Shown piece after piece: positions 27,046 to 39,067 of a DNA stretch of 64,000 bases; position 1 is the first letter of the stretch; every line of letters starts with the position of its first letter. Below the pieces are notes generated by a model that saw only the letters and a list, made by a program, of their open reading frames with translations, was not told the origin of the DNA and did not search any database. Source of the stretch: Gammaproteobacteria bacterium (lineage in GTDB: Bacteria; Pseudomonadota; Gammaproteobacteria; Burkholderiales; Gallionellaceae). The translations under genes and the position numbers were made by a program. The stretch lies in contig JAHIZO010000010.1 of assembly GCA_018814405.1 (NCBI GenBank), positions 1 to 64,000 on the forward strand, given 5' to 3'.

Positions 27046-27078
27046 AGGACATTGGTCGCCAAATTACTGGAGAGAGAC

Positions 27079-28077
27079 ATGTTAACGAATGGATCCATAC
27101 TTATCACCGGCGGCACAGGCTCCTTTGGTCATGCCTTTGTTCCGCTCACGTTGGCCAAGTACAACCCGCGCCGTTTGGTCATCCTTTCACGGGACGAGAT
27201 GAAGCAATGGGAAATGGCCAAACTATATAGCGGTGATGACCGTGTTCGCTTCTTTATTGGCGATGTGCGCGATAAGGACAGGCTCGCTCGCGCACTTAAC
27301 GGTATAGATTATGTAGTGCATGCTGCCGCCACCAAGATTGTTCCTACTGCGGAATACAATCCCTTTGAATGCGTCAAAACCAACATTATCGGCGCGATGA
27401 ACCTTATCGACGCATGCATTGATAAGGGCGTGAAGCGCGTCGTTGCCCTGTCAACAGATAAGGCAAGTAGTCCTGCCAATCTGTATGGCGCTACTAAACT
27501 TGCTTCGGACAAACTCTTTGTCGCAGGGAATTCGTACTCGGGAGATGGAAATACCAGTTTCGGAGTGGTGCGCTATGGCAATGTCATGGGGTCCAGAGGA
27601 TCTGTGATCCCACACTTCCAATCACTTGCCGGCAAGGGCGTGCTTCCAATAACAGATGAGCGAATGACTCGCTTCATGATCACTCTTGAGCAGGGGGTCG
27701 AGCTGGTCTGGCATGCATTCGAGGATATGGTGGGCGGGGAAATATATGTGAAGAAGATCCCGTCCATGAAGGTCACCGATATGGCCCATGCGGTCTCACC
27801 CGATGCGCGCCATGAAGTGGTCGGGATCCGTCCTGGTGAGAAATTACATGAACAGATGATAGGTTACGAAGATGCCGCGAATACCTACGAATATGACGAC
27901 CACTACAAGATACTCCCGGCGATCCATAACTGGAATAATGATCCTGAGCGTATAAAAAATGGCCGTAGGGTCGCGCCTGACTTCACTTACTGCTCAGATA
28001 GCAATACAGAGTGGATGAGTGTCGACTCGCTTCGAAAATGGCTGGAACAGAATCGTGACAAGGTTGGCAGGGTCTGA
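27079..28077 (+). CDS. pseB: UDP-GlcNAc 4,6-dehydratase (inverting), pseudaminic acid pathway step 1
   Basis: 332 aa from ATG 27079 behind GGAGAGA; the earlier TTG at 27052 is unlikely. The nucleotide motif is SILITGGTGSFGHAF. Other PseB features are KIVPTAEYNPFECVKTNIIGAMNLI, STDKASSPANLYGATKLASDKLF (Tyr136/Lys140) and VRYGNVMGSRGSVIPHF. It makes UDP-4-keto-6-deoxy-L-AltNAc from UDP-GlcNAc. The five following genes supply most of the rest of the CMP-pseudaminic acid pathway in order C, F, G, formyltransferase-like, I. Confidence 0.94.
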   Translation: MLTNGSILITGGTGSFGHAFVPLTLAKYNPRRLVILSRDEMKQWEMAKLYSGDDRVRFFIGDVRDKDRLARALNGIDYVVHAAATKIVPTAEYNPFECVKTNIIGAMNLIDACIDKGVKRVVALSTDKASSPANLYGATKLASDKLFVAGNSYSGDGNTSFGVVRYGNVMGSRGSVIPHFQSLAGKGVLPITDERMTRFMITLEQGVELVWHAFEDMVGGEIYVKKIPSMKVTDMAHAVSPDARHEVVGIRPGEKLHEQMIGYEDAANTYEYDDHYKILPAIHNWNNDPERIKNGRRVAPDFTYCSDSNTEWMSVDSLRKWLEQNRDKVGRV

Positions 28078-28082
28078 TAACG

Positions 28083-29243
28083 ATGATTCCGTACGGACGA
28101 CAGGATATTTCCGAAGCAGATATCCAAGCTGTGGTGGAGGTGTTGCGTTCTGATTTTCTTACGCAGGGGCCAGCCGTGCCTGCGTTTGAGGATGCCGTCG
28201 CAAACTATTGTGGTGCCAAGTTTGCGATAGCCGCCAACAGTGCAACATCATCTTTGCATCTTGCTTGCCTAGCATTGGGTGTGGGGAAGGGCGATATTGT
28301 CTGGACCAGCCCGATCACTTTCGTGGCGAGTGCAAATTGCGCGCTGTATTGCGGTGCTGAGGTGGGGTTCGTTGATGTTGATTTGCGAACCTGCAACATG
28401 AGCGCGGATCTTCTGGCAGAGAAGCTTGCCGAAGCGGAAAGTAAGAATGAACTGCCCAAAGTGGTTATTCCGGTACATATGGGTGGCCAGTCGAGCGATA
28501 TGGCCGCGATCCATGCCTTGAGCCAGCGGTACGGATTTAAGATTATTGAGGACGCTTCGCATGCTATCGGCGGAAGGTACGGGAGTGGAATTATAGGCGG
28601 CTGTCGCTACAGCGATATCACCGTATTCAGTTTTCATCCGGTCAAGATCATCACCACGGGCGAGGGGGGGATGGCGCTGACCAATGACGAGCATCTGGCT
28701 AAACGAATGCGCTTGCTAAGAAGCCACGGTATTACACGCGACCCGGCAGATATGACCCATGAGCCGGATGGTCCTTGGTATTACCAGCAAATAGCACTAG
28801 GTTTTAATTACCGTATGACGGATATGCAGGCAGCTCTGGGGCTGAGCCAAATGCAGCGGCTTGATGAGTTCGTCGCGAGACGTCACGTCTTGGCGAAGCG
28901 ATATGACCTGTTGCTATCAGATTTGCAAGTGACGCTTCCATACCAACATCCTGAAAGCTATTCAGGGATGCATCTCTACGCGATCCGGTTGAACCTGAAC
29001 GAGATTCGCGCTACTCAGCGTGAGGTATTCGAGGCATTGCGAGCAGCTGATATTGGCGTGAATCTGCATTACATCCCGGTATATGCCCAACCCTATTTTG
29101 CAGCACTGGGCTTCAAGGCCGGTCTTTGCCCAGAAGCTGAACGATATTACTCTGAAGCTATTAGTCTGCCGATGTACACAGGATTGCAGGAGAGCCAGCA
29201 AGACCAAGTGGTGGCGGCATTGCGAAAGGCCATCAGCATATGA
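28083..29243 (+). CDS. pseC: Pseudaminic pathway aminotransferase
   Basis: 386 aa DegT/DnrJ/EryC1/StrS-family PLP enzyme. It opens with IPYGRQDISEADIQAVVEVLRSDFLTQGP, the hallmark of PseC. The PLP lysine is Lys188 in SFHPVKIITTGEGGM. EDASHAIGGRYG supplies the PLP-binding Asp. It transfers an amino group to C4 of the PseB product. Its stop overlaps the pseF start. Confidence 0.93.
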   Translation: MIPYGRQDISEADIQAVVEVLRSDFLTQGPAVPAFEDAVANYCGAKFAIAANSATSSLHLACLALGVGKGDIVWTSPITFVASANCALYCGAEVGFVDVDLRTCNMSADLLAEKLAEAESKNELPKVVIPVHMGGQSSDMAAIHALSQRYGFKIIEDASHAIGGRYGSGIIGGCRYSDITVFSFHPVKIITTGEGGMALTNDEHLAKRMRLLRSHGITRDPADMTHEPDGPWYYQQIALGFNYRMTDMQAALGLSQMQRLDEFVARRHVLAKRYDLLLSDLQVTLPYQHPESYSGMHLYAIRLNLNEIRATQREVFEALRAADIGVNLHYIPVYAQPYFAALGFKAGLCPEAERYYSEAISLPMYTGLQESQQDQVVAALRKAISI

Positions 29244-29944
29244 AAATCGCCGTTATTCCAGCAAGGGGCGGCAGCAAGCGCATCCCACGTAAAAATATCA
29301 AGGAGTTTTTTGGCAAACCGATGATCGCTTGGTCGTTGGAAGCGGCAAGGAGCTCGGGTGTATTCGATCGCATCATCGTTTCCACCGATGATGCTGAGAT
29401 CGCTGAAGTGGCGAAAGCCTGGGGCGCAGAGGTCCCTTTTAGCCGCCCGGATGCGCTTTCCAATGACTATGCAGGGACTACGGAAGTCATTGCCCATGCG
29501 ACACAGTGGATGCTGAGCCAAGGGGTGAGTGTAGACGCCGTTTGCTGTATCTATGCAACGGCACCATTCATTCGCGGGGAAGATATCAGGCTCGGTCTGG
29601 ATGCACTGCAATCGGGAGATTGGGCTTATGCGTTCACCGTGACCGATTTTGCTGCTCCGATATTTCGCTCATTCAGGCAGACGGAAAAGGGTGGGCTTGA
29701 GATGTTTTTCCCGGAACACTTTGCGACCCGGTCGCAAGATCTGCCGACGGCATTGCATGATGCCGGACAGTTCTACTGGGGGCGTCCCTCGGCATGGATA
29801 GAAGGGCTGCGAATCTTTGGTCATCAGTCAACGCCGTTGTTCATACCGCGCTGGCGCGTTCAAGATATTGATACGCAGGAAGACTGGGTCAGAGCCGAGA
29901 TATTGGCTCCTGGTATCGTGGGGCAGGGCGAGAAACATGCATGA
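29240..29944 (+). CDS. pseF: Pseudaminic acid cytidylyltransferase
   Basis: 234 aa. The CMP-nonulosonate synthetase signature IPARGGSKRIPRKNIKEFFGKPMIAWSLEAA lies at the N-terminus. Further motifs are IVSTDDAEIAEVAKAWGAEVPFSRPDALSNDYAGTTEV, DAGQFYWG and DIDTQEDWVRAE. It activates the nonulosonate with CTP. Its length fits PseF (about 230 aa). It overlaps pseC by 4 nt and is 3 nt from pseG. Confidence 0.93.
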   Translation: MKIAVIPARGGSKRIPRKNIKEFFGKPMIAWSLEAARSSGVFDRIIVSTDDAEIAEVAKAWGAEVPFSRPDALSNDYAGTTEVIAHATQWMLSQGVSVDAVCCIYATAPFIRGEDIRLGLDALQSGDWAYAFTVTDFAAPIFRSFRQTEKGGLEMFFPEHFATRSQDLPTALHDAGQFYWGRPSAWIEGLRIFGHQSTPLFIPRWRVQDIDTQEDWVRAEILAPGIVGQGEKHA

Positions 29945-29947
29945 GTC

Positions 29948-31027
29948 ATGCAGAACCGAATGAATGTCGCTTTTCGTACGGATGCTTCGGCCCAGATCGG
30001 AACTGGCCATTTCATGCGTTGTATGACGCTGGCGGGCGCTTTGCAACGTCGAGGCGCTTCTATCAGCTTCATCAGTCGCAAGTTGCCGGGGTATCTGCAC
30101 GAAATGCTGAAAGAAAAAGGGATGGAATATGTAGCACTGGATGCCTGTTCGGCTCCTTTTCCTGCGGACGAATTGGCTCACGCGAGTTGGCTCGGGGCCA
30201 GCCAGACTCAGGATGCGATAGCTACAGTTAAGGCGTCCGCTGGCCGGATATGGGACTGGCTCATCGTAGATCACTATGCACTGGATAGTAGATGGGAGTC
30301 CATGCTCTGCGATGTCGCCAAGAAATTGCTGGTTATCGACGACATCGCCGATCGTCAGCATCAATGTGACGTACTGCTCGACCAGAATCTTTTTTCAGAT
30401 ATGGATCGACGCTATTCAGGCAAAGTGCCCGCGAATGGCCGAATATTACTTGGTCCTGGCTATGCATTGTTGCGGGACGAATTCAAGAATCTGCATGGGC
30501 AGGTCAGTATGCGCACGGGGACTGGCAGAAGGGTGTTGGTATTCTTTGGTGGGGCAGATAAGGAAGATTGCACAGGACGTGCTATTGAGGCGCTGAAAGG
30601 TATCGGTGATCTGGAGGTGGATGTGGTGATTGGAGCATTGCATCCTTTCCGTGAGCAGATCGAGATGGAATGTGCGCGGCACGGATACGTGTGCCATGTT
30701 CAGACGGACAGGATGGCAGAACTCATGGCAATAGCTGATCTGGCGATCGGGGCGGGAGGGTCGGCCAGTTGGGAACGCTGTTGTATGGGATTGCCCACAG
30801 TGCTTGTGGCGCTGGCGGACAACCAAGTCGATATCGCAAAGGCATTGGATGAGTTTGGTGCCAGCATTTATGTCGGGACGCTGAAAGTGGCCGATGTTTC
30901 GGCGCTACGTTCTGTGATCACTGAACTGCTACGCACTCAGGAAAAACTGGCAGCGATGTCTGAGAAAGCCTATTCGCTAGTGGATGGTTTGGGGGCTGAA
31001 CGTGTTTGCCAAGTGATGGAGGCCTGA
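29948..31027 (+). CDS. pseG: UDP-2,4-diacetamido-2,4,6-trideoxy-L-altrose hydrolase
   Basis: 359 aa GT-B-fold hydrolase. The opening FRTDASAQIGTGHFMRCMTLA contains the catalytic-type His21. A central WLIVDHYALDSRWESML and a C-terminal AIGAGGSASWERCCMGLPTVLVALADNQ are typical of PseG. It cleaves UDP to release the free 6-deoxy sugar for PseI. ATG 29948 is 3 nt after pseF; the Met at codon 5 is an alternative start. Confidence 0.92.
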   Translation: MQNRMNVAFRTDASAQIGTGHFMRCMTLAGALQRRGASISFISRKLPGYLHEMLKEKGMEYVALDACSAPFPADELAHASWLGASQTQDAIATVKASAGRIWDWLIVDHYALDSRWESMLCDVAKKLLVIDDIADRQHQCDVLLDQNLFSDMDRRYSGKVPANGRILLGPGYALLRDEFKNLHGQVSMRTGTGRRVLVFFGGADKEDCTGRAIEALKGIGDLEVDVVIGALHPFREQIEMECARHGYVCHVQTDRMAELMAIADLAIGAGGSASWERCCMGLPTVLVALADNQVDIAKALDEFGASIYVGTLKVADVSALRSVITELLRTQEKLAAMSEKAYSLVDGLGAERVCQVMEA

Positions 31028-31028
31028 A

Positions 31029-31682
31029 ATGAATATTTCCATCTTGAGTAGCGACATCAAGCATCCAGTTATCGACGACCTAAAGGGCTGGATGAGAGAC
31101 ATGACCTCCAAAGGGCACTCAGTAGAGCTTGTATTCGATAAGGCGAGCTTGCGAGGTGGGGACATTCTGTTTCTGATCTCTTACCAGCAATTGATCGGAG
31201 AAAAAGAACGGGCTCAATACGGTGCCACACTGGTCCTGCATGCAAGTGACCTCCCCAAGGGCAGGGGATGGTCTCCGTACATCTGGTCTATTCTGGGTGG
31301 AGCAAATCAGATCACGGTTTGCTTGCTTGAGGCAAGCGAGCCTGTAGATAGTGGTGCCGTATGGTTGAGAAATAGCTTCAAACTCGAGGGGCACGAACTT
31401 CTTCCGGAGATACATGAGAAATTGTTCATGGCAGAGCTGAAACTTATGACGCAAGCGGTCGAACAGTTCGGTGCCGTCACCCCTGTCGAACAGGTCGGAG
31501 AAGCGGGAGTTTTTCTTCCGAAAAGGTCGCCGTCTGATAGTAGGCTGGACCCGGACAAGACGATCGCAGAGCAATTCGATCTTTTGCGTGTCGTCGATAA
31601 CCAAAGATATCCGGCATATTTTGATCATTGCGGAAAGCGCTATGTGATCCACATTGAGAAGGTAGGGCAAGATGAGCGATAG
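31029..31682 (+). CDS. Formyltransferase-family protein of the pseudaminic operon
   Basis: 217 aa. It resembles the N-terminal formyltransferase domain of Fmt/ArnA. TLVLHASDLPKGRGWSPYIWSILGG carries the catalytic-type His71, and EASEPVDSGAVW supplies Asp107. The Asn two residues before the catalytic His in Fmt and ArnA is Val69 here, so the Asn-His-Asp triad is incomplete. HxSDLPKGxGWSP-like versions recur in nonulosonate loci in my recollection, so this may be a family trait. It lies exactly where the PseH acetyltransferase step is needed and may N-acylate C4 with formyl or another group. Confidence 0.65.
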   Translation: MNISILSSDIKHPVIDDLKGWMRDMTSKGHSVELVFDKASLRGGDILFLISYQQLIGEKERAQYGATLVLHASDLPKGRGWSPYIWSILGGANQITVCLLEASEPVDSGAVWLRNSFKLEGHELLPEIHEKLFMAELKLMTQAVEQFGAVTPVEQVGEAGVFLPKRSPSDSRLDPDKTIAEQFDLLRVVDNQRYPAYFDHCGKRYVIHIEKVGQDER

Positions 31683-32730
31683 GACTGAAATAAGGATCGC
31701 CGGAAGAGTCGTTGGGCGGGGCCATCCCCCTTTCATCATTGCCGAGATGTCCGGCAATCATAACCAGTCACTGGAACGTGCACTGGAGATCGTAGAGGCT
31801 GCAGCAAAGGGTGGTGCACATGCGTTGAAGCTGCAGACCTATACGCCGGATACCATGACGCTCGATCTGGATGAGCGAGAATTCCATATCAGTGACCAGA
31901 ACAGTCTATGGGCGGGCACATCGTTGTATAAACTTTATGCAGAAGCCTGCACGCCGTGGGAGTGGCACAAGCCGATCTTTGCGCGTGCGCGCGAACTGGG
32001 CATGATTCCGTTCAGCACGCCTTTTGATGATAGTGCGGTGGACTTTCTCGAGGGTATGGACGTGCCCTGTTACAAGATCGCTTCATTTGAAAATACCGAC
32101 CTGCCCTTGATACGCCGCGTGGCGGCGACCGGGAAACCCCTGATCATTTCTACCGGCATGGCTAAGCTGTCTGAGCTGGATGAGACCGTTCGGGCTGCAC
32201 GTGAGGCAGGTTGTAATGAGTTGGTATTGCTCAAATGCACCAGCAGCTATCCGGCTTCGGCGGTGAATAGCAATATTCTTACTTTGCCACACCTGCGAGA
32301 GTTGTTCGGCTGTGAAGTAGGACTTTCAGATCACACTATGGGCATAGGTGTGGCAGTAGCGGCAGTCGCAGTGGGTGCCAGTGTCATTGAAAAACATTTC
32401 ACCCTGGATCGTTCAGCAGGTGGTGTGGATAGCGCCTTTTCTATGGAACCTGCAGAAATGGGGCAGCTGGTGGTTGAAACAGAACGTGCTTGGCAGGCGC
32501 TCGGAAAGGTGAGTTACGGGGTCACAGAGACAGAAAAAGCTTCTATCCAATTCCGCCGCTCTTTGTATGTGGTGCAGGATCTCAAGGTGGGAGAAGTGCT
32601 GACGCATGAGAATGTGCGTGCGATCCGGCCAGGCTTGGGCTTGCCGATAAAATATCTTGATCAGGTGCTGGGCCGGGCAGTGAAGCAGGATGTGAGACGG
32701 GGCACGGCCCTTAATTGGGACATGTTCTGA
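31672..32730 (+). CDS. pseI: Pseudaminic acid synthase
   Basis: 352 aa NeuB-family enzyme. The N-terminal TIM-barrel region includes FIIAEMSGNHNQSLERALEIVEAAAKGGAHALKLQTYTPDTMTL, with further motifs LISTGMAKLSELDE, LLKCTSSYPA and GLSDHTMGIGVAVAAVAVGASVIEKHFTLDRS. The C-terminal SAF (antifreeze-like) domain is VVQDLKVGEVLTHENVRAIRPGLGLP. It condenses the 6-deoxy-AltdiNAc product with PEP. The start overlaps the formyltransferase-like gene by 11 nt. Confidence 0.94.
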   Translation: MSDRTEIRIAGRVVGRGHPPFIIAEMSGNHNQSLERALEIVEAAAKGGAHALKLQTYTPDTMTLDLDEREFHISDQNSLWAGTSLYKLYAEACTPWEWHKPIFARARELGMIPFSTPFDDSAVDFLEGMDVPCYKIASFENTDLPLIRRVAATGKPLIISTGMAKLSELDETVRAAREAGCNELVLLKCTSSYPASAVNSNILTLPHLRELFGCEVGLSDHTMGIGVAVAAVAVGASVIEKHFTLDRSAGGVDSAFSMEPAEMGQLVVETERAWQALGKVSYGVTETEKASIQFRRSLYVVQDLKVGEVLTHENVRAIRPGLGLPIKYLDQVLGRAVKQDVRRGTALNWDMF

Positions 32731-32731
32731 G

Positions 32732-33754
32732 ATGGAGCTGCTGCGCGTCCTTATCGTTGGCTGCGGGAATATTGCGGGCACCTTTGATCAGGGGCGAGCC
32801 GGGAATGAACTTCCGTATACCCATGCAGGTGCATTCTTGCGCGATGGGCGTTTCATCCTATCTGCATGTGTCGAACCTGATACCGAAAAGCGCAAAGCAT
32901 TTATGGCCGCGTGGGGTATCAATAACGGGTATTCATCGCTGGAGCAGGTGGCAGAAACGGAAGACGGTTTCGATGTCATCAGCATCTGCTCTCCGACGCC
33001 AATGCACGCACAAAACCTTGAGTTGGCATTGAAATTGAAGCCACGGCTGATTTTCTGTGAGAAGCCCGTTACAACATCGCTCACGGAGTCCGAACGTTTG
33101 GTTGCTGCGTGCCGTGATGCCAATATATTGCTTGCAGTAAATCACACCCGTCGCTGGGCACCCGATGTCGCTGAGTTTCAGGCGGATATGCGAACAGGCA
33201 GATGGGGGCAGTTGCGTTCAGTGGTCGGTTTCTACAACAAGGGGATATTGAACAATGGTTCACACCTGATCGATCTCTTGCATCTGTTGCTTGGAAAGAT
33301 GGAGATCGAGAAGGTAGGAGAGCCGCTCCATGATTTCTTCCCGAATGATCCTACGGTCCCTGTCTGGCTAAAGGCCGCACAAGGTGTGCCTGTTCATCTG
33401 GTGTGTGGAAATGCAGCAGATTACGCACTATTTGAAATTCAGATGATCTTTTCGAAAGGCATGGTGACTATGGAAGACGGTGGATTCTTCTGGCGTGAAC
33501 GTCGTGCAGTTGCTAGCAATGCATTCAAGGGCTATCAAGTGTTAGGCGAGGGCGTTCGCCGAGACGGAGAATATCGCTTGGCCATGCAGAATGCTGCGGA
33601 CAATATTTTTCGTGCAATCACGTCGGGTGCTGCACTTGCGAGTACGGGAGAAACAGCGATTGCCACACAGCGCGTGTGCGAAGAGATCGCACGACTGGCT
33701 TGCACAAATCCGGAAAAAGTACGAGTACATTCCACTGGCGAAAAATCAGTATGA
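32732..33754 (+). CDS. Gfo/Idh/MocA-family sugar oxidoreductase
   Basis: 340 aa. The NAD(P)-binding opening is VLIVGCGNIAGTFDQ (7-21). The family catalytic motif EKP is Glu110-Lys111-Pro112 in LIFCEKPVTTSLTESE. It probably oxidises or reduces a nucleotide-sugar or free-sugar hydroxyl to give the keto substrate for the next gene's aminotransferase, with which it overlaps as ATGA. The order oxidoreductase, aminotransferase, acetyltransferase parallels WlbA-WlbC-WlbB/WbpB-WbpE-WbpD, but no UDP-GlcNAc dehydrogenase or epimerase is present. Confidence 0.85.
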   Translation: MELLRVLIVGCGNIAGTFDQGRAGNELPYTHAGAFLRDGRFILSACVEPDTEKRKAFMAAWGINNGYSSLEQVAETEDGFDVISICSPTPMHAQNLELALKLKPRLIFCEKPVTTSLTESERLVAACRDANILLAVNHTRRWAPDVAEFQADMRTGRWGQLRSVVGFYNKGILNNGSHLIDLLHLLLGKMEIEKVGEPLHDFFPNDPTVPVWLKAAQGVPVHLVCGNAADYALFEIQMIFSKGMVTMEDGGFFWRERRAVASNAFKGYQVLGEGVRRDGEYRLAMQNAADNIFRAITSGAALASTGETAIATQRVCEEIARLACTNPEKVRVHSTGEKSV

Positions 33755-35043
33755 CGAATATCAATAAAAACGAAATGCTGGCGCTATTTGGCGGAAACAA
33801 AACCATTCAGCGGCCATTCAAGCGCTACAACCCTATTGGAGAAGAAGAGGTGAATGCCGCCAAGCAGGTCGTCGAAAGCGGGGTCCTGTCGCAGTTTCTG
33901 GGTGTCTGGCACGAGGACTTTTATGGCGGCCCAAAAGTGCGGGAATTCGAGCAGGCGTGCGCGTCATACTTTGGCGTCAAGCATGCGATTACAGTGAATT
34001 CAGCGACATCGGGATTGATCGCAGCAGTCGGCGCGATCGGAATTGAGCCTGGTGATGAGGTCATCGTCAGTCCGTGGACAATGTGTGCCAGCGCCACTGC
34101 GATCTTGCATTGGAATGCTATCCCTGTATTTGCTGATATCGACCCGGAAACATTCAATCTTGATCCTGTTTCTGTTGAAGCAAATATCACCCCCTACACC
34201 AAGGCAATCATGGCAGTGGATATCTTTGGACACTCGGCCGATATGGATGTCCTCATGGAGATCGCCGCAAAACATGGTTTGAAAGTGATTTCAGATGCTG
34301 CTCAGGCACCGGGTGCTTTGTATGGGAATAGATATGCAGGAACACTGGCTCACGTCGGCAGTTACAGTCTCAATTACCACAAGCACATTCACACTGGTGA
34401 GGGCGGGGTACTGGTTACAGATGATGACGATATCTGCGAGCGCCTGCAGCTGATCCGTAATCATGCCGAGGCGGTCGTTGGCGGCAAGGGAGTTGCGAGT
34501 CTGTCCAATATGATCGGATATAACTTCCGCTTGGGCGAGATCGAATGTGCGATCGGTATCGAACAGCTCAAGAAGCTGAAGACACTGGTCGCATCGCGAC
34601 AGAACTCGGCAGCAAGACTATCTGCCGGACTAGAGGGATTGAAAGGCCTGCGCACGCCAGTTGTCAGGCCAAGTTGCACGCATGCCTATTACATCTACCC
34701 TCTGGTGCTGGACGTAGATGGTTTGGGGGTGAGCCGTGATCGCATTTGGGAAGCCTTGGTCGCAGAAGGAGTCGAGGGTCTGTCGCCAAGCTATGTCAAC
34801 TTGCACATGCTCCCTATGTTTCAGAAAAAGATCGCGTATGGGTCGGGGGGCTTTCCGTGGACATCCGAGATATGCAGGCGCAATGTGGACTATCGGCATG
34901 GCATTTGTCCGGTAGCGGAGGAGTTGCAGGAAAAGAGTTATCTGGGCTTCGCCATGTGCCTGAACGATTTGAGTGATCCGGATGTGGATTTGATCATAGA
35001 AGGATTCCGGAAAGTATGGCATCAAATGGAGAGCCTGAAATGA
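33751..35043 (+). CDS. DegT/DnrJ/EryC1/StrS-family aminotransferase
   Basis: 430 aa from ATG 33751, overlapping the previous stop; the longer frame from 33676 lies within the oxidoreductase gene. The PLP lysine is Lys211 in YSLNYHKHIHTGEGGVLV, with ISDAAQAPGALYG giving the PLP-contacting Asp. It is longer than WbpE/PseC-type enzymes (about 360-390 aa) and starts with LALFGGNKTIQRPFKRYNPIGEEEVNAA. This variant is also seen in aminocyclitol-like or unusual sugar aminotransferases, so the product is uncertain. Confidence 0.85.
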   Translation: MTNINKNEMLALFGGNKTIQRPFKRYNPIGEEEVNAAKQVVESGVLSQFLGVWHEDFYGGPKVREFEQACASYFGVKHAITVNSATSGLIAAVGAIGIEPGDEVIVSPWTMCASATAILHWNAIPVFADIDPETFNLDPVSVEANITPYTKAIMAVDIFGHSADMDVLMEIAAKHGLKVISDAAQAPGALYGNRYAGTLAHVGSYSLNYHKHIHTGEGGVLVTDDDDICERLQLIRNHAEAVVGGKGVASLSNMIGYNFRLGEIECAIGIEQLKKLKTLVASRQNSAARLSAGLEGLKGLRTPVVRPSCTHAYYIYPLVLDVDGLGVSRDRIWEALVAEGVEGLSPSYVNLHMLPMFQKKIAYGSGGFPWTSEICRRNVDYRHGICPVAEELQEKSYLGFAMCLNDLSDPDVDLIIEGFRKVWHQMESLK

Positions 35044-35582
35044 TTTACCAGTTGAATAAGGACTACTTTGTCAGGGCGCTTTCGGAAAGCGATCTGGAAG
35101 GTGCATATCCGGGGTGGTTCGAAGATCAAGAAGTATGCCGATACAACTCGCACGGAAAGTTCTTTCAAGCGCGGGAATATTTCCGGGAGTATTTGAACGA
35201 TTCGAACCGAAAGGATCGGATCGTCTGGGCGATCTGTCATGTCGTAGATGGGCATATCGGCAACGTATCCCTGCAGGATATCTCCTTGATCAACCGCACA
35301 GCAGAGTTCGCCATTCTGCTGGGGGATAAACGGCACTGGGGAAAAGGAGTGGGGACGCTGGTAGGAAGGAAGTTGCTGGAACATGGTTTCGAAAAACTGG
35401 GTCTGGAACGTATCCACTGCGGGACTGCAGCGACGAACAAGGGTATGAAAAAGCTCGCAGCAACTCTGGGCATGAGTCTTGAAGGTACGCGGCGCAAGCA
35501 CTTATTCCTTGAAGGAGCTAGGGTGGACATGCTGGAATATGGCATTTTGCGCACAGAGTTCGAGGAGAACGCGGCTCCATGA
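35040..35582 (+). CDS. GNAT-family N-acetyltransferase (PseH/RimJ-like)
   Basis: 180 aa from ATG 35040, which overlaps the previous TGA. The acetyl-CoA-binding motif A is LLGDKRHWGKGVGTLVGRKLLEHGFEKLGLERIHCGT, and the C-terminal LEGTRRKHLFLEGARVDMLEYGIL closely follows the PseH pattern. Two roles are plausible: it may be the PseH of the upstream pseudaminic operon, displaced by 2.3 kb, or it may acetylate the amine installed by the adjacent aminotransferase. Confidence 0.8.
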   Translation: MIYQLNKDYFVRALSESDLEGAYPGWFEDQEVCRYNSHGKFFQAREYFREYLNDSNRKDRIVWAICHVVDGHIGNVSLQDISLINRTAEFAILLGDKRHWGKGVGTLVGRKLLEHGFEKLGLERIHCGTAATNKGMKKLAATLGMSLEGTRRKHLFLEGARVDMLEYGILRTEFEENAAP

Positions 35583-36490
35583 TCGCAGTGATTTCCTGTG
35601 ACGCAGGAGGGGCTGAGATTGTCAGTAGCTACGTCCGCAGACAGAATTTGACTGCACGCTTCGTTTTGGAAGGGCCTGCATGCAAGATATTCGAGCGTAA
35701 GTTGGGCCGACTGGAAATATGCCCCTTGGAGGAAGCTATTCTGCAGTCGTCTTCGATACTTTGCGGAAGCAGCTGGAAGTCCGATATCGAGGTGGATGCC
35801 ATCAGGCTGGCGCGCTTGCATGGCAAGCGTTCCATTGTGTTCATTGATCACTGGGTCAATTACCGGGATCGATTCGTCCGCTCTGGAGAGACTGTATTCC
35901 CTGATGAGATATGGGTCGGGGATGATATGGCTCGGGAACTGGCGCAAGAAGCCCTTCCCGGTTTGCCCATCACATTGGTAGAGAACCCCTACCTTCTGGA
36001 TGTCAGAGAAGAACTGAAAGGAATTAAAAAGCGGCAAGTGGCTTCATTAGGTTCTGCCTCCATACTTTATGTCTGCGAACCGATCGGCGAACATGCGCTG
36101 CTGAGATATGGAGATAGGCGTTACTGGGGATACGATGAAGAAGAGGCATTGCGATATTTTTTGAATAATTATCAGTCTCTGGGTATGCCGATAGAACGCA
36201 TCCTGATTCGTCCGCATCCTTCAGAGTCGGTAGAGAAGTACTTTTGGGTGCAGAAGGAGTTCGATCTGCCTATTGAGATAGGCGGGGCCCTCACCCTGCT
36301 GGAGGAGATTTCAGAAAGTGATGTAGTGGTCGGCTGCGAGTCGATGGCGATGGTCGTCGCCCTGGCCGCTGGTAAAAAAGTGTTCAGTTGCATTCCACCC
36401 GGTGGTCGGGAGTGCTCTTTGCCGCACAAGGATATAGCTATGCTACGCGATGTATTGAAGATCAAGAGGGGCAGCCAAGATGAAAGTTGA
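35579..36490 (+). CDS. Unassigned GT-B-like protein
   Basis: 303 aa. It opens IAVISCDAGGAEIVSSYVRRQ. The C-terminal half has ERILIRPHPSESVEKYFW and DVVVGCESMAMVVALAAGKKVFSCIPPGG, which resemble the second Rossmann domain of capsule and sialyl-type transferases and UDP-GlcNAc 2-epimerase-fold proteins. SIVFIDHWVNYRDRF in the middle is distinctive. I do not recognise a specific family. It overlaps the acetyltransferase upstream (4 nt) and the amidotransferase downstream (11 nt), so it belongs to the same modification unit. Confidence 0.5.
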   Translation: MIAVISCDAGGAEIVSSYVRRQNLTARFVLEGPACKIFERKLGRLEICPLEEAILQSSSILCGSSWKSDIEVDAIRLARLHGKRSIVFIDHWVNYRDRFVRSGETVFPDEIWVGDDMARELAQEALPGLPITLVENPYLLDVREELKGIKKRQVASLGSASILYVCEPIGEHALLRYGDRRYWGYDEEEALRYFLNNYQSLGMPIERILIRPHPSESVEKYFWVQKEFDLPIEIGGALTLLEEISESDVVVGCESMAMVVALAAGKKVFSCIPPGGRECSLPHKDIAMLRDVLKIKRGSQDES

Positions 36491-37706
36491 TGAGAAATCT
36501 CCCCAGCCCATTGAAGGAATCAGGTATTGCGTCAGATGTTGCGTTCCCGAGACGCAGGAAGGTGTGCAATTTGACGAAATGGGTATATGCACGGCCTGCC
36601 GATCTTCGGAAGAGAAGATGCATATCAACTGGGTCGAGCGCGAGAAGCAACTGAGAAAAATTCTGGAAGAAGCAAAGGCAAAGGCAGGAACTGGCTATGA
36701 CTGTGTTCTCCCGATATCGGGCGGGAAGGACAGTTTTTTTCAGGCGCATGTCCTAGTCAAGGTTTATGGGATGAAGCCTTTGGCCGTGACCTTTAACCAG
36801 AACTGGGTTTCCGAGACTGGTTTTTATAATCTGCAACGTTGTCTGGAGGTTTTCGATCTGGACCATCTCCAGTTCACCCCGGCGCGAGGGTTGGTCAATC
36901 GTTTGGCCAAGAGGTCGTTATCGGCAATTGGTGATTCATGCTGGCATTGCCATGCTGGCGTAGGTGCATTTCCGTTACAGATTGCGACCCGCTTCAAGAT
37001 ACCGCTATTGGTCTGGGGTGAGTCGATTGCAGAAAATGCCGGCCGAGCATCCTATAGCTGTCCCGGAGTTAAATTCGACAGGGATTATTTCACCAAGGTT
37101 TCTGCCAAGCTGACGGCTCAAGAAATGACAAGCGGAGAGCTTAGCGCCAAGGATCTTTACCCTTTCGAACTTCCCAGTTATGAGGAGATTGAGAAGACTG
37201 GCGTTTGGGGGATCCATTTGGGAGATTACATGTTCTGGGATGACGAGCGTCAGACGGAATGGATACGAGATACATATGGTTGGCGCGAGACTGAGATGGA
37301 GGGCGCATATAAAGGATATAAGAGCGCCGAGTGCATCATGGCGGGCGTACATGATTTCACCTGTTATTTGAAGCGTGGTTTTGGAAGGTCGACTGCGCAA
37401 GCCTCAGTTGATGTGCGTAACGGGCTTCTGACCAGACAAGAAGGATTCGACCTGATTCGGCAGCATGATCAGGAGCGCCCTGAAGCGCTTGACTACTATC
37501 TCAAGATCACCGGGATGAGTGAGGCGGAGTTCTACGATACGATGAGGGAAAAGAAGTTGGATGTGCTTAAGGAAATCGATCTGCCGGTCCATCCCAAGGA
37601 GAGACCGAATGCCGAACGATTGGTGCCGTTTGTAGAACAGGTCATCAATAAGCATCTCAACCAACCAGACCCCCGTGTCGCCCGAGATGAGAAGGAGGGG
37701 GGCTGA
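36480..37706 (+). CDS. N-acetyl sugar amidotransferase (PseA/WbpG-like)
   Basis: 408 aa. A zinc-type set of cysteines is present: Cys17, Cys20 and Cys37/Cys40 (CVRCCVPET and GICTACR). The ATP-pyrophosphatase loop is PISGGKDSFF (78-87). The family's DSCWHCHAGVGAFPLQIATRF and VWGESIAENAG segments follow. Family members convert an N-acetyl group on a sugar to an acetamidino group using ATP and ammonia. In Pseudomonas O-antigen loci the ammonia comes from HisH/HisF-like partners. None is present here; an amidase-signature gene follows immediately (TGATG overlap). Confidence 0.88.
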   Translation: MKVDEKSPQPIEGIRYCVRCCVPETQEGVQFDEMGICTACRSSEEKMHINWVEREKQLRKILEEAKAKAGTGYDCVLPISGGKDSFFQAHVLVKVYGMKPLAVTFNQNWVSETGFYNLQRCLEVFDLDHLQFTPARGLVNRLAKRSLSAIGDSCWHCHAGVGAFPLQIATRFKIPLLVWGESIAENAGRASYSCPGVKFDRDYFTKVSAKLTAQEMTSGELSAKDLYPFELPSYEEIEKTGVWGIHLGDYMFWDDERQTEWIRDTYGWRETEMEGAYKGYKSAECIMAGVHDFTCYLKRGFGRSTAQASVDVRNGLLTRQEGFDLIRQHDQERPEALDYYLKITGMSEAEFYDTMREKKLDVLKEIDLPVHPKERPNAERLVPFVEQVINKHLNQPDPRVARDEKEGG

Positions 37707-39067
37707 TGCGCACTCTTTTTCTGGAACGATCTATCCCTGAATTGAGGCAAAGTCTAGAGCGAGGCGAGCTCTCGTTTGGAGATATCGTCGACGCTTCAGT
37801 TCAAACGATAGAGGCCAAAGAAGTCAAGACACGGGCGTGGGTAGACTTTGATTTGGATCGCCTCCAGCTTGAATCGCAGCAGAGCTTTACGAGATACAAA
37901 GCACGCGGGTATTTACTCGGTATGGAGGGCATCCCGTTTGGCGTCAAGGATATCTTCAATACAAGGGACTTTCCCACGCAAATGGGCTCTCCTCTATGGA
38001 AGGGGTTCACTCCGGGCAATAACGCTAGAGCAGTGGACTCTTTGGTTTCAGCCGGCGGATTGGTCGTTGGCAAGACGGTGACCGCTGAATTTGCAGTGCA
38101 TGCACTCAATGAGACGCTGAATCCGCATGACCCTTCGAAGACGCCTGGCACTTCCTCCAGTGGTTCAGCCGCGGCAGTTGCGACCGGGATGGTTCCGTTT
38201 GCACTTGCTACTCAAACCGCAGGGTCTATCGTGCGCCCAGCCAGTTTTTGCGGAATATGGGGGATGAAGCCTTCTTTTGGCCTGATTCCCCGTACCGGCG
38301 TATTGAAGACTACAGATTCACTAGACACTTTGGGTTTCGTGGCATCGCATGGGAAAAGCCTAAGGAGCATTCTTGATCTATTGAGGGTGAAGGGGCCTGA
38401 TTATCCTTTCGTCTATACCAATGTGGATAAGCGGAGTGCTTATCCAAAACAAAAGGATCGTCCTTGGCGAGTCGGTTTTGTGAAGACGCATACTTGGGGA
38501 ACGGCTGCTCCATATGCTCAGCAGGCACTGGAGGAGTTGGCCGCCAAGATAGGGCGGCAGACGGGATTCGAAGTTGAAGAGATCGAGTGGGAGCGCGCAT
38601 TGTGCACTTCGCATGATATCCATACGACTATCTACAATAAATCCCTCTCATATTACTTTCAGCATGAAATGCAGATGGATTCCCAGATTACGCCACTCAT
38701 GAAGAAGATGATCGAGGCAGGTGTTTCCATAAGTCCAGAAGCCTTCAGGCGGGCACTCGAAGAGCAGGCTAGATATTGCGAGACATTGGATTCGCTTCTT
38801 TCTCCATATGATCTGGTCCTTTCTCTGGGGACCTCTAGCTCCGCACCATTACGAGGAGTGGAGGAATCACCAGATCCGTCATTAGCGTGGACATTGGGGC
38901 ATATCCCGGCGGTAGCTGTCCCCACATTCCGCTGTCCAGAAGGACTTCCGTTTGGAGTTCAGTTCGTATCTCGCAGGTGGAATGACTATTTGCTGCTGCA
39001 AGGGGTAGAAGAGCTGATCGATTGCGGCGTTCTTCCGGCGGGTAGTCAGTTGATTCGCGAGATGTGA
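37706..39067 (+). CDS. Amidase-signature family protein
   Basis: 453 aa. The Ser-cisSer-Lys catalytic set is visible: Lys81 in IPFGVKDIFNT, the serine stretch 150-154 in PGTSSSGSAAAVA, and the nucleophile Ser174 in QTAGSIVRPASFCG. Relatives include GatA, acetamidase and urea-derivative amidases; GatA releases ammonia from glutamine for a partner amidotransferase. Here its start overlaps the stop of the PseA/WbpG-like gene, so an ammonia-supply role is attractive. Alternatives are removal of an N-acyl group from a sugar or trimming of an amidine. It is not fused to any other domain. Confidence 0.85.
   Translation: MRTLFLERSIPELRQSLERGELSFGDIVDASVQTIEAKEVKTRAWVDFDLDRLQLESQQSFTRYKARGYLLGMEGIPFGVKDIFNTRDFPTQMGSPLWKGFTPGNNARAVDSLVSAGGLVVGKTVTAEFAVHALNETLNPHDPSKTPGTSSSGSAAAVATGMVPFALATQTAGSIVRPASFCGIWGMKPSFGLIPRTGVLKTTDSLDTLGFVASHGKSLRSILDLLRVKGPDYPFVYTNVDKRSAYPKQKDRPWRVGFVKTHTWGTAAPYAQQALEELAAKIGRQTGFEVEEIEWERALCTSHDIHTTIYNKSLSYYFQHEMQMDSQITPLMKKMIEAGVSISPEAFRRALEEQARYCETLDSLLSPYDLVLSLGTSSSAPLRGVEESPDPSLAWTLGHIPAVAVPTFRCPEGLPFGVQFVSRRWNDYLLLQGVEELIDCGVLPAGSQLIREM

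Follow-up and report, generated by a model that had tools for sequence, protein, structure and literature searches.

An amidase-signature gene paired with a WbuX-type sugar amidotransferase in the place of HisH and HisF

Which protein supplies ammonia to a sugar amidotransferase whose gene has neither HisH nor HisF beside it? The question is raised by a 64,000-nucleotide stretch of contig JAHIZO010000010.1 (assembly GCA_018814405.1, Gallionellaceae), here called the window, in which the gene for a WbuX-type N-acetyl sugar amidotransferase (NASAT) runs directly into a gene for an amidase-signature protein, here called AMID. The window WbuX resembles the enzymes of the WbuX-WbuY-WbuZ and WbpG-HisH2-HisF2 systems as well as PseA and PtmG (NASAT, PDB: 8WEX) in its TIGR03573 family, tetracysteine, PP-loop and pseudaminic-acid neighbours. 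Unlike the WbuXYZ and HisH2-HisF2 systems, it has an amidase-signature gene in place of the HisH and HisF partners. The pairing is real and old enough to have diverged, and in one clade of WbuX proteins AMID stands where other WbuX have HisH/HisF. Judging from sequence comparison, AMID probably takes over from HisH/HisF by hydrolysing a small amide and passing ammonia to WbuX.

The WbuX and AMID proteins

The initial annotation had reported an amidotransferase gene overlapping, by the motif TGATG, the gene of a 453-aa protein, and both open reading frames (ORFs; 408 and 453 amino acids) are present: the TGA stop codon of WbuX (37704-37706) and the ATG start codon of AMID (37706-37708) have one base in common. 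It had also ascribed an SGGKDS loop and a set of four cysteines to the amidotransferase. Both are present in a protein that scores 336.9 bits against the NCBIfam model TIGR03573 (cut-off 203.2) and so belongs to that family. The tetracysteine comprises C17, C20, C37 and C40, and the PP-loop SGGKDS spans residues 80-85; the corresponding NASAT motifs, CxxC...CxxC and SGGxDS, are given in the available portion of PMC10607449. A profile search of the PDB with WbuX returned, beyond 8WEX, weak matches only.

AMID is a member of the amidase-signature family, with 203.1 bits against the Pfam Amidase model PF01425 (cut-off 27), and its predicted active-site residues Lys81, cis-Ser150 and the nucleophile Ser174 were confirmed. 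It matches 26 NCBIfam amidase models and falls short of the curated cut-off of each of the 25 listed; the WbuX-linked AMIDs of loci L186, L188, L099 and L019 likewise exceed none of the 25 cut-offs listed for each. An assignment as GatA is ruled out by the NCBIfam gatA score of 171.6 bits against a cut-off of 481.1. In a tree of 21 amidase-signature proteins, the 11 AMIDs linked to WbuX form one group (support 100/99). All 11 keep Lys81, Ser150 and Ser174, and all read GTS at residues 148-150, in contrast to GGS in the 10 other amidase-signature proteins. An arginine three residues beyond the nucleophile (Arg177 in the window) is present in 11/11 linked AMIDs and 5/10 of the others, and also in malonamidase E2. 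In malonamidase E2, a free-standing hydrolase, this arginine binds the substrate carboxylate. AMID shares the arginine with that enzyme but is tied to WbuX and has T149 at a position that is G or A in those malonamidase E2 chains that were aligned. Searches of plasmid records found no close relative of either protein: AMID matched 1458 records, none of them reaching 60% identity (32-37% for the 20 listed), and WbuX matched 20 records, the best at 34.8%.

Linkage of AMID to one WbuX clade

Scanning genome contigs with AMID yielded 13 loci. WbuX is the adjacent gene in all six loci whose AMID is 43-74% identical to that of the window (L014-L019), and no WbuX match above 60 bits was found in the stretch covered around the seven AMID-like genes at 26-37% identity (L020-L026). 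Searches with the window WbuX at E 1e-20 found a match in 25/398 genomes of its own phylum (own genome included), 25/394 in the phylum of G399 and 14/296 in that of G398 (each including the named genome), and 10/48 in the order of G030, all of the last already seen; at E 1e-80, matches occurred in 6/337 genomes of the class of G403 (G403 included) and in 1/257 of the class of G400 (G400 itself). WbuX neighbourhoods were scored with custom profiles for HisH, HisF, WbuX and amidase, and linkage was defined as presence within 6 kb.

The WbuX tree, built from 88 rows, has one clade of 14 (100/99) that contains every AMID-linked row, 11 in number; the other three (L153, L187, L190) are cut by contig ends and were not counted. 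Inner forks of this clade are weak (86-92/56-61). Its AMID-linked records are labelled Spirochaetota, Chlorobiota, Pseudomonadota and Bacteroidota, and four of the 11 rows (G030, G1211, G1404, G1135) were found by the WbuX search alone. No HisH or HisF lies within 6 kb of any WbuX of the clade. Outside it, 63 of 71 uncut rows have HisH and/or HisF within that distance (both in 61), and none has AMID, absence being judged over the stretch covered in the 25 rows that have less than 6 kb on one or both sides; the amidase profile had no match in the scanned loci outside the clade. The resulting contrast, 11/11 against 0/71, gives a Fisher p of 7e-14. It persists when the window and the six AMID-fetched loci are left out (4/4 against 0/71, p 8e-7) and when only outside rows with the full 6 kb on both sides are kept (4/4 against 0/46, p 4e-6), all three p values overstating independence, as the rows are related by descent. 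Two outside rows cut by a contig end (L111, L169) were not counted. The second WbuX of L188, which belongs to a different clade and lies about 3 kb from the AMID there, was kept apart from the 71. Rows dropped were L138 (a duplicate of L015), L123|2490 and L057|2899 (matches under 250 aa) and L165|2529 (160 bits, limit 190 bits; no HisH, HisF or AMID match in the locus).

The initial annotation had held that rarity of the pair would speak against it. The pair is indeed scarce overall, but within its WbuX clade the linkage holds in 11 of 11 uncut rows. A chance neighbourhood is set aside by this confinement to one clade.

Nine of the pairs are directly adjacent with WbuX leading, and in seven of these start and stop overlap. 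The overlap is 1 base long in L014 and the window and 4 in L015, L188 and L189; depending on the start chosen, it is 8 or 11 bases for L016 and 8 or 14 for L017. The genes are separated by 6 bases in L018 and by at least 23 in L186.

Two genomes separate AMID from its surroundings. In G710 (L127), genes for PseG (49% identity), formyltransferase-like stretches, PseI (76%) and homologues of the four genes upstream of the window pair (Table 1), namely U303 (52%), Gfo (26%), AT2 (74%) and GNAT (28%), lie in this order on one strand and are followed by WbuX-HisH-HisF-WbuX, without AMID. The HisH scores 221.5 bits (cut-off 105.4); the HisF scores best as WbuZ, at 247.0, below the cut-off of 299.7. 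Both WbuX copies fall in clades other than that of the AMID-linked proteins, and at E 0.001 this genome yields a single amidase-signature match (35% over 170 residues), apparently a GatA. In G1211 (L186), WbuX-AMID occupies one strand, and flanking PseB-, PseC-, PseG- and NeuB-like genes the other; the 19 kb retrieved contain no match to Gfo, AT2, GNAT or U303 at E 1e-10. Taken together, the exchange seen in G710 and the isolated pair of G1211 indicate that AMID follows WbuX and not the cassette, and that HisH/HisF can occupy its place.

The window genome itself (2.38 Mb, 98.7% complete) was searched in its assembled part. HisH, HisA and HisF lie side by side on contig C3 in one his operon; no second HisH/HisF was found, and the locus lacks the WbuXYZ or HisH2-HisF2 arrangement. 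A hidden HisH2/HisF2 was not borne out by searches for class I glutamine amidotransferases (GATases) and HisF-family proteins. Five of six class I GATase matches lie in or resemble TrpG, CarA, GuaA, PyrG and the his-operon HisH. The five HisF-family matches comprise HisF and HisA beside HisH, L011 (24.7 bits, cut-off 23.6), which resembles a Dus enzyme, and two below the cut-off. The proposal that an amidase stands instead of HisH/HisF is supported by a HisH/HisF confined to the his operon in the window genome, by the absence of both within 6 kb of WbuX in the AMID clade, and by the swap in G710.

The sister clade of WbuX (seven rows) is mixed, with three rows linked to HisH/HisF, three with neither and one cut. 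Within it, L119-L121 carry the PP-loop variant SFGKDS instead of SGGKDS, and no HisH, HisF or AMID gene lies within 6 kb of them. In other loci, a single HisH/HisF pair is flanked by two WbuX of different clades (L125, L127 1-3617, L128) or followed by them (L106), an arrangement that would suit two amidotransferases sharing a single ammonia source.

A proposed ammonia supply and its alternatives

We hypothesize that WbuX, at its PP-loop, would use ATP to activate the carbonyl of an N-acetyl group carried by a nonulosonic or similar sugar, and that the Ser-cisSer-Lys triad of AMID would hydrolyse a small amide bearing a carboxylate (glutamine, asparagine or a malonamate-like compound). The ammonia freed by AMID would be handed to WbuX, giving the acetamidine. 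AMID alone would then cover the roles that HisH, the glutaminase, and HisF, the partner barrel, have for most WbuX enzymes, much as GatA serves GatB on tRNA as an ammonia source. We infer the hydrolysis, the amide donor, the ammonia hand-over, the complex and the amidine product from the gene and protein comparisons described here, which suggest a GatA-like route of ammonia supply in the AMID-linked branch of WbuX. The likeness to GatCAB is that an amidase-signature subunit presumably provides ammonia to an ATP-dependent enzyme that forms an amide or amidine; AMID, however, is partnered by a PP-loop sugar enzyme in place of GatB and reads GTS instead of GGS.

Several observations weigh against this proposal. 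Among solved structures, AMID is matched best by malonamidase E2 (8.4e-57), ahead of GatA (3e-36), and the glutamine-holding part of GatA does not line up with similar residues in AMID; taken together, these two points mean that glutamine may not be the donor. For eight of the 71 uncut outside WbuX rows, none of HisH, HisF and AMID lies within 6 kb, and WbuX may therefore do without a linked donor. Gene order is not fixed: L019 has AMID first and WbuX 13 bases behind it, and L099 has two ORFs between WbuX and AMID, all on one strand. The sixth class I GATase of the window genome stands alone on contig C1. Furthermore, three of six relatives (G399, G400, G402) hold a HisH/HisF set outside the his operon, which weakens the exclusivity of AMID for those three genomes. 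When these relatives were searched for HisH above the cut-off, G398 had it only between HisB and HisA, and G401 and G403 had none; of the two in G399, one adjoins HisA and the other belongs to a WbuX-HisH-HisF set, and in G400 and G402 the sole HisH is part of a HisH/HisF set outside a his operon, in G402 with WbuX. In G402 that set and the WbuX-AMID pair are on different contigs; in G399 and G400 they share a contig, at distances of 22 kb and about 20 kb, respectively. The objection foreseen in the initial annotation, a HisH/HisF set linked elsewhere to the amidotransferase, therefore fails for the window genome and holds in part for the relatives, two of the three sets being on the contig of the pair, some 20 kb from it. 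Lastly, the extra cysteines of the AMID-linked WbuX clade, described below, could mean a different chemistry.

AMID might instead be an editing or remodelling amidase that acts on an N-acyl, amidine or amide group of the sugar, with WbuX drawing its ammonia from the cell or elsewhere. We regard this as unlikely, although amidase-signature enzymes mostly hydrolyse substrate amides, the closest solved relative is malonamidase E2, and the eight partnerless WbuX rows would fit such a role. An editing role would not readily explain the restriction of AMID to WbuX proteins of a clade that lacks adjacent HisH/HisF, or why AMID accompanies WbuX without the cassette in G1211. Ammonia supply is favoured over sugar editing because in G710, a genome in which AMID was not found, the same cassette is accompanied by HisH/HisF in the position that AMID takes in the window. 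That AMID is a passenger of a mobile polysaccharide cassette is very improbable. The GNAT-U303-WbuX-AMID block, mostly with AT2 and Gfo, does recur in distant phyla, but the pair is also kept in the divergent loci L019, L099, L186, L188 and L189 amid different surroundings, and the catalytic triad is intact in 11/11 AMIDs.

The extra cysteines raise another alternative. The window WbuX carries C154xxC157 and C285 (36939-37334 for residues 154-285), and all three residues occur in 13/13 aligned rows of the AMID clade, the fragment L190, the 14th row, having been left out of this alignment. The sister clade has C154 and C157 in 7/7 rows and C285 in six, the seventh ending before that position. 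The full set, which distinguishes these two clades from other WbuX, occurs in none of the 66 remaining rows; C154 is found in none of them, cysteines at 157 and 285 in L125_9606 and L127_3, and a cysteine at 285 in L128_9188. Measured from the PP-loop serine, the CxxC lies at +74/+77, nearly where a TtcA-like protein of the same genome has it (+75/+78). According to the available portions of PMC7138817 and PMC6225789, three cysteines bind the [4Fe-4S] cluster of TtuA, and TtcA depends on a cluster of this kind. An Fe-S cluster in this sugar amidotransferase is thus hinted at by the residue pattern, and it stays a hint because the third cysteine is farther off, at +205 against +163/+166 in the TtcA-like protein. 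On this basis, the AMID-linked WbuX could be an Fe-S PP-loop enzyme near TtcA and TtuA that inserts sulfur to give a thioamide, with AMID serving another step. The cysteines and their spacing speak for it, but we consider it quite improbable: besides the distant third cysteine, the sister clade has the CxxC in every row and three of those rows are linked to HisH/HisF, so these cysteines also occur with ammonia partners. A combined reading, in which an Fe-S WbuX clade would be fed ammonia by contact with a dedicated amidase-signature subunit that displaced HisH/HisF in otherwise conserved pathways, is a tentative one that we hold to be doubtful.

To our knowledge, GatA is the only amidase-signature ammonia donor known. 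If ammonia supply by AMID is correct, it would add a second such role, extending the use of this fold beyond the tRNA amidotransferase to a sugar and to a PP-loop enzyme. The nitrogen source of NASAT enzymes has been little studied, and the clade with a swapped partner, together with a HisH/HisF-bearing relative that has the same cassette, offers a ready comparison for the need of NASAT enzymes for a dedicated ammonia source and for the role of HisF. The available text on the LpNASAT structure describes a zinc tetracysteine and a PP-loop and mentions ammonia, with the donor protein unnamed there (PMC10607449). PseA and/or PtmG are named as the acetamidino step in the portions available of PMC13317340 and PMC3766260, and acetamidino sugars in those of PMC7371886 and PMC3068675. 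The word 'amidase' is absent from the portions of PMC13317340, PMC3766260 and PMC7371886, and that of PMC11237513 holds nothing on the WbuX-AMID pairing, which was not found in print in the open-licence literature searched.

Surroundings of the pair

The genes around the pair are collected in Table 1. PseB, PseC, PseF, PseG and PseI of the window each score above their NCBIfam cut-offs.

Table 1. Genes of the window around WbuX and AMID
Feature	Position	Strand	Basis
N-acetyl sugar amidotransferase, WbuX/NASAT type, 408 aa	36480..37706	+	TIGR03573 match; PDB 8WEX, E 1.5e-43
AMID, amidase-signature enzyme, 453 aa	37706..39067	+	PF01425 match; closest PDB entry malonamidase E2
U303, looks GT-B-like	35579..36490	+	no Pfam family; weak TIGR04396
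GNAT N-acetyltransferase, distantly PseH-like	35016..35582	+	PF13302, 2e-23; PseH model 37 bits, below cut-off
AT2, DegT-family sugar aminotransferase	33748..35043	+	PF01041, 3.2e-92 (scanned from 33676)
Gfo/Idh/MocA dehydrogenase (Gfo)	32732..33754	+	PF01408, 4.7e-17
Pseudaminic-acid set: PseB, PseC, PseF, PseG, formyltransferase-like protein, PseI	27052..32730	+	NCBIfam scores

The Gfo-AT2-GNAT-U303 cassette (32732-36490) occurs, whole or in part, beside nonulosonic-acid genes in distant phyla (L014-L018, L127). The order GNAT-U303-WbuX-AMID is kept in L014-L017. AT2 lies upstream in L014, L016 and L018 (73-83% identical to that of the window) and in L015 (44%), and Gfo relatives of 26-32% identity stand directly upstream of AT2 in L015, L016 and L018. 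Neither was seen in L017, whose contig stops 0.8 kb before GNAT. GNAT is 71-80% identical in four of the five close relatives. U303, at 51-64% identity in L014-L018, adjoins WbuX in four and is relocated in the fifth: in L018 it precedes Gfo, and the GNAT ahead of WbuX does not match that of the window.

Within the pseudaminic-acid set, the formyltransferase-like protein (31029-31682), which has weak family matches, sits between PseG and PseI. It fills the slot where a PseH acetyltransferase might be expected and may point to an N-formyl group.

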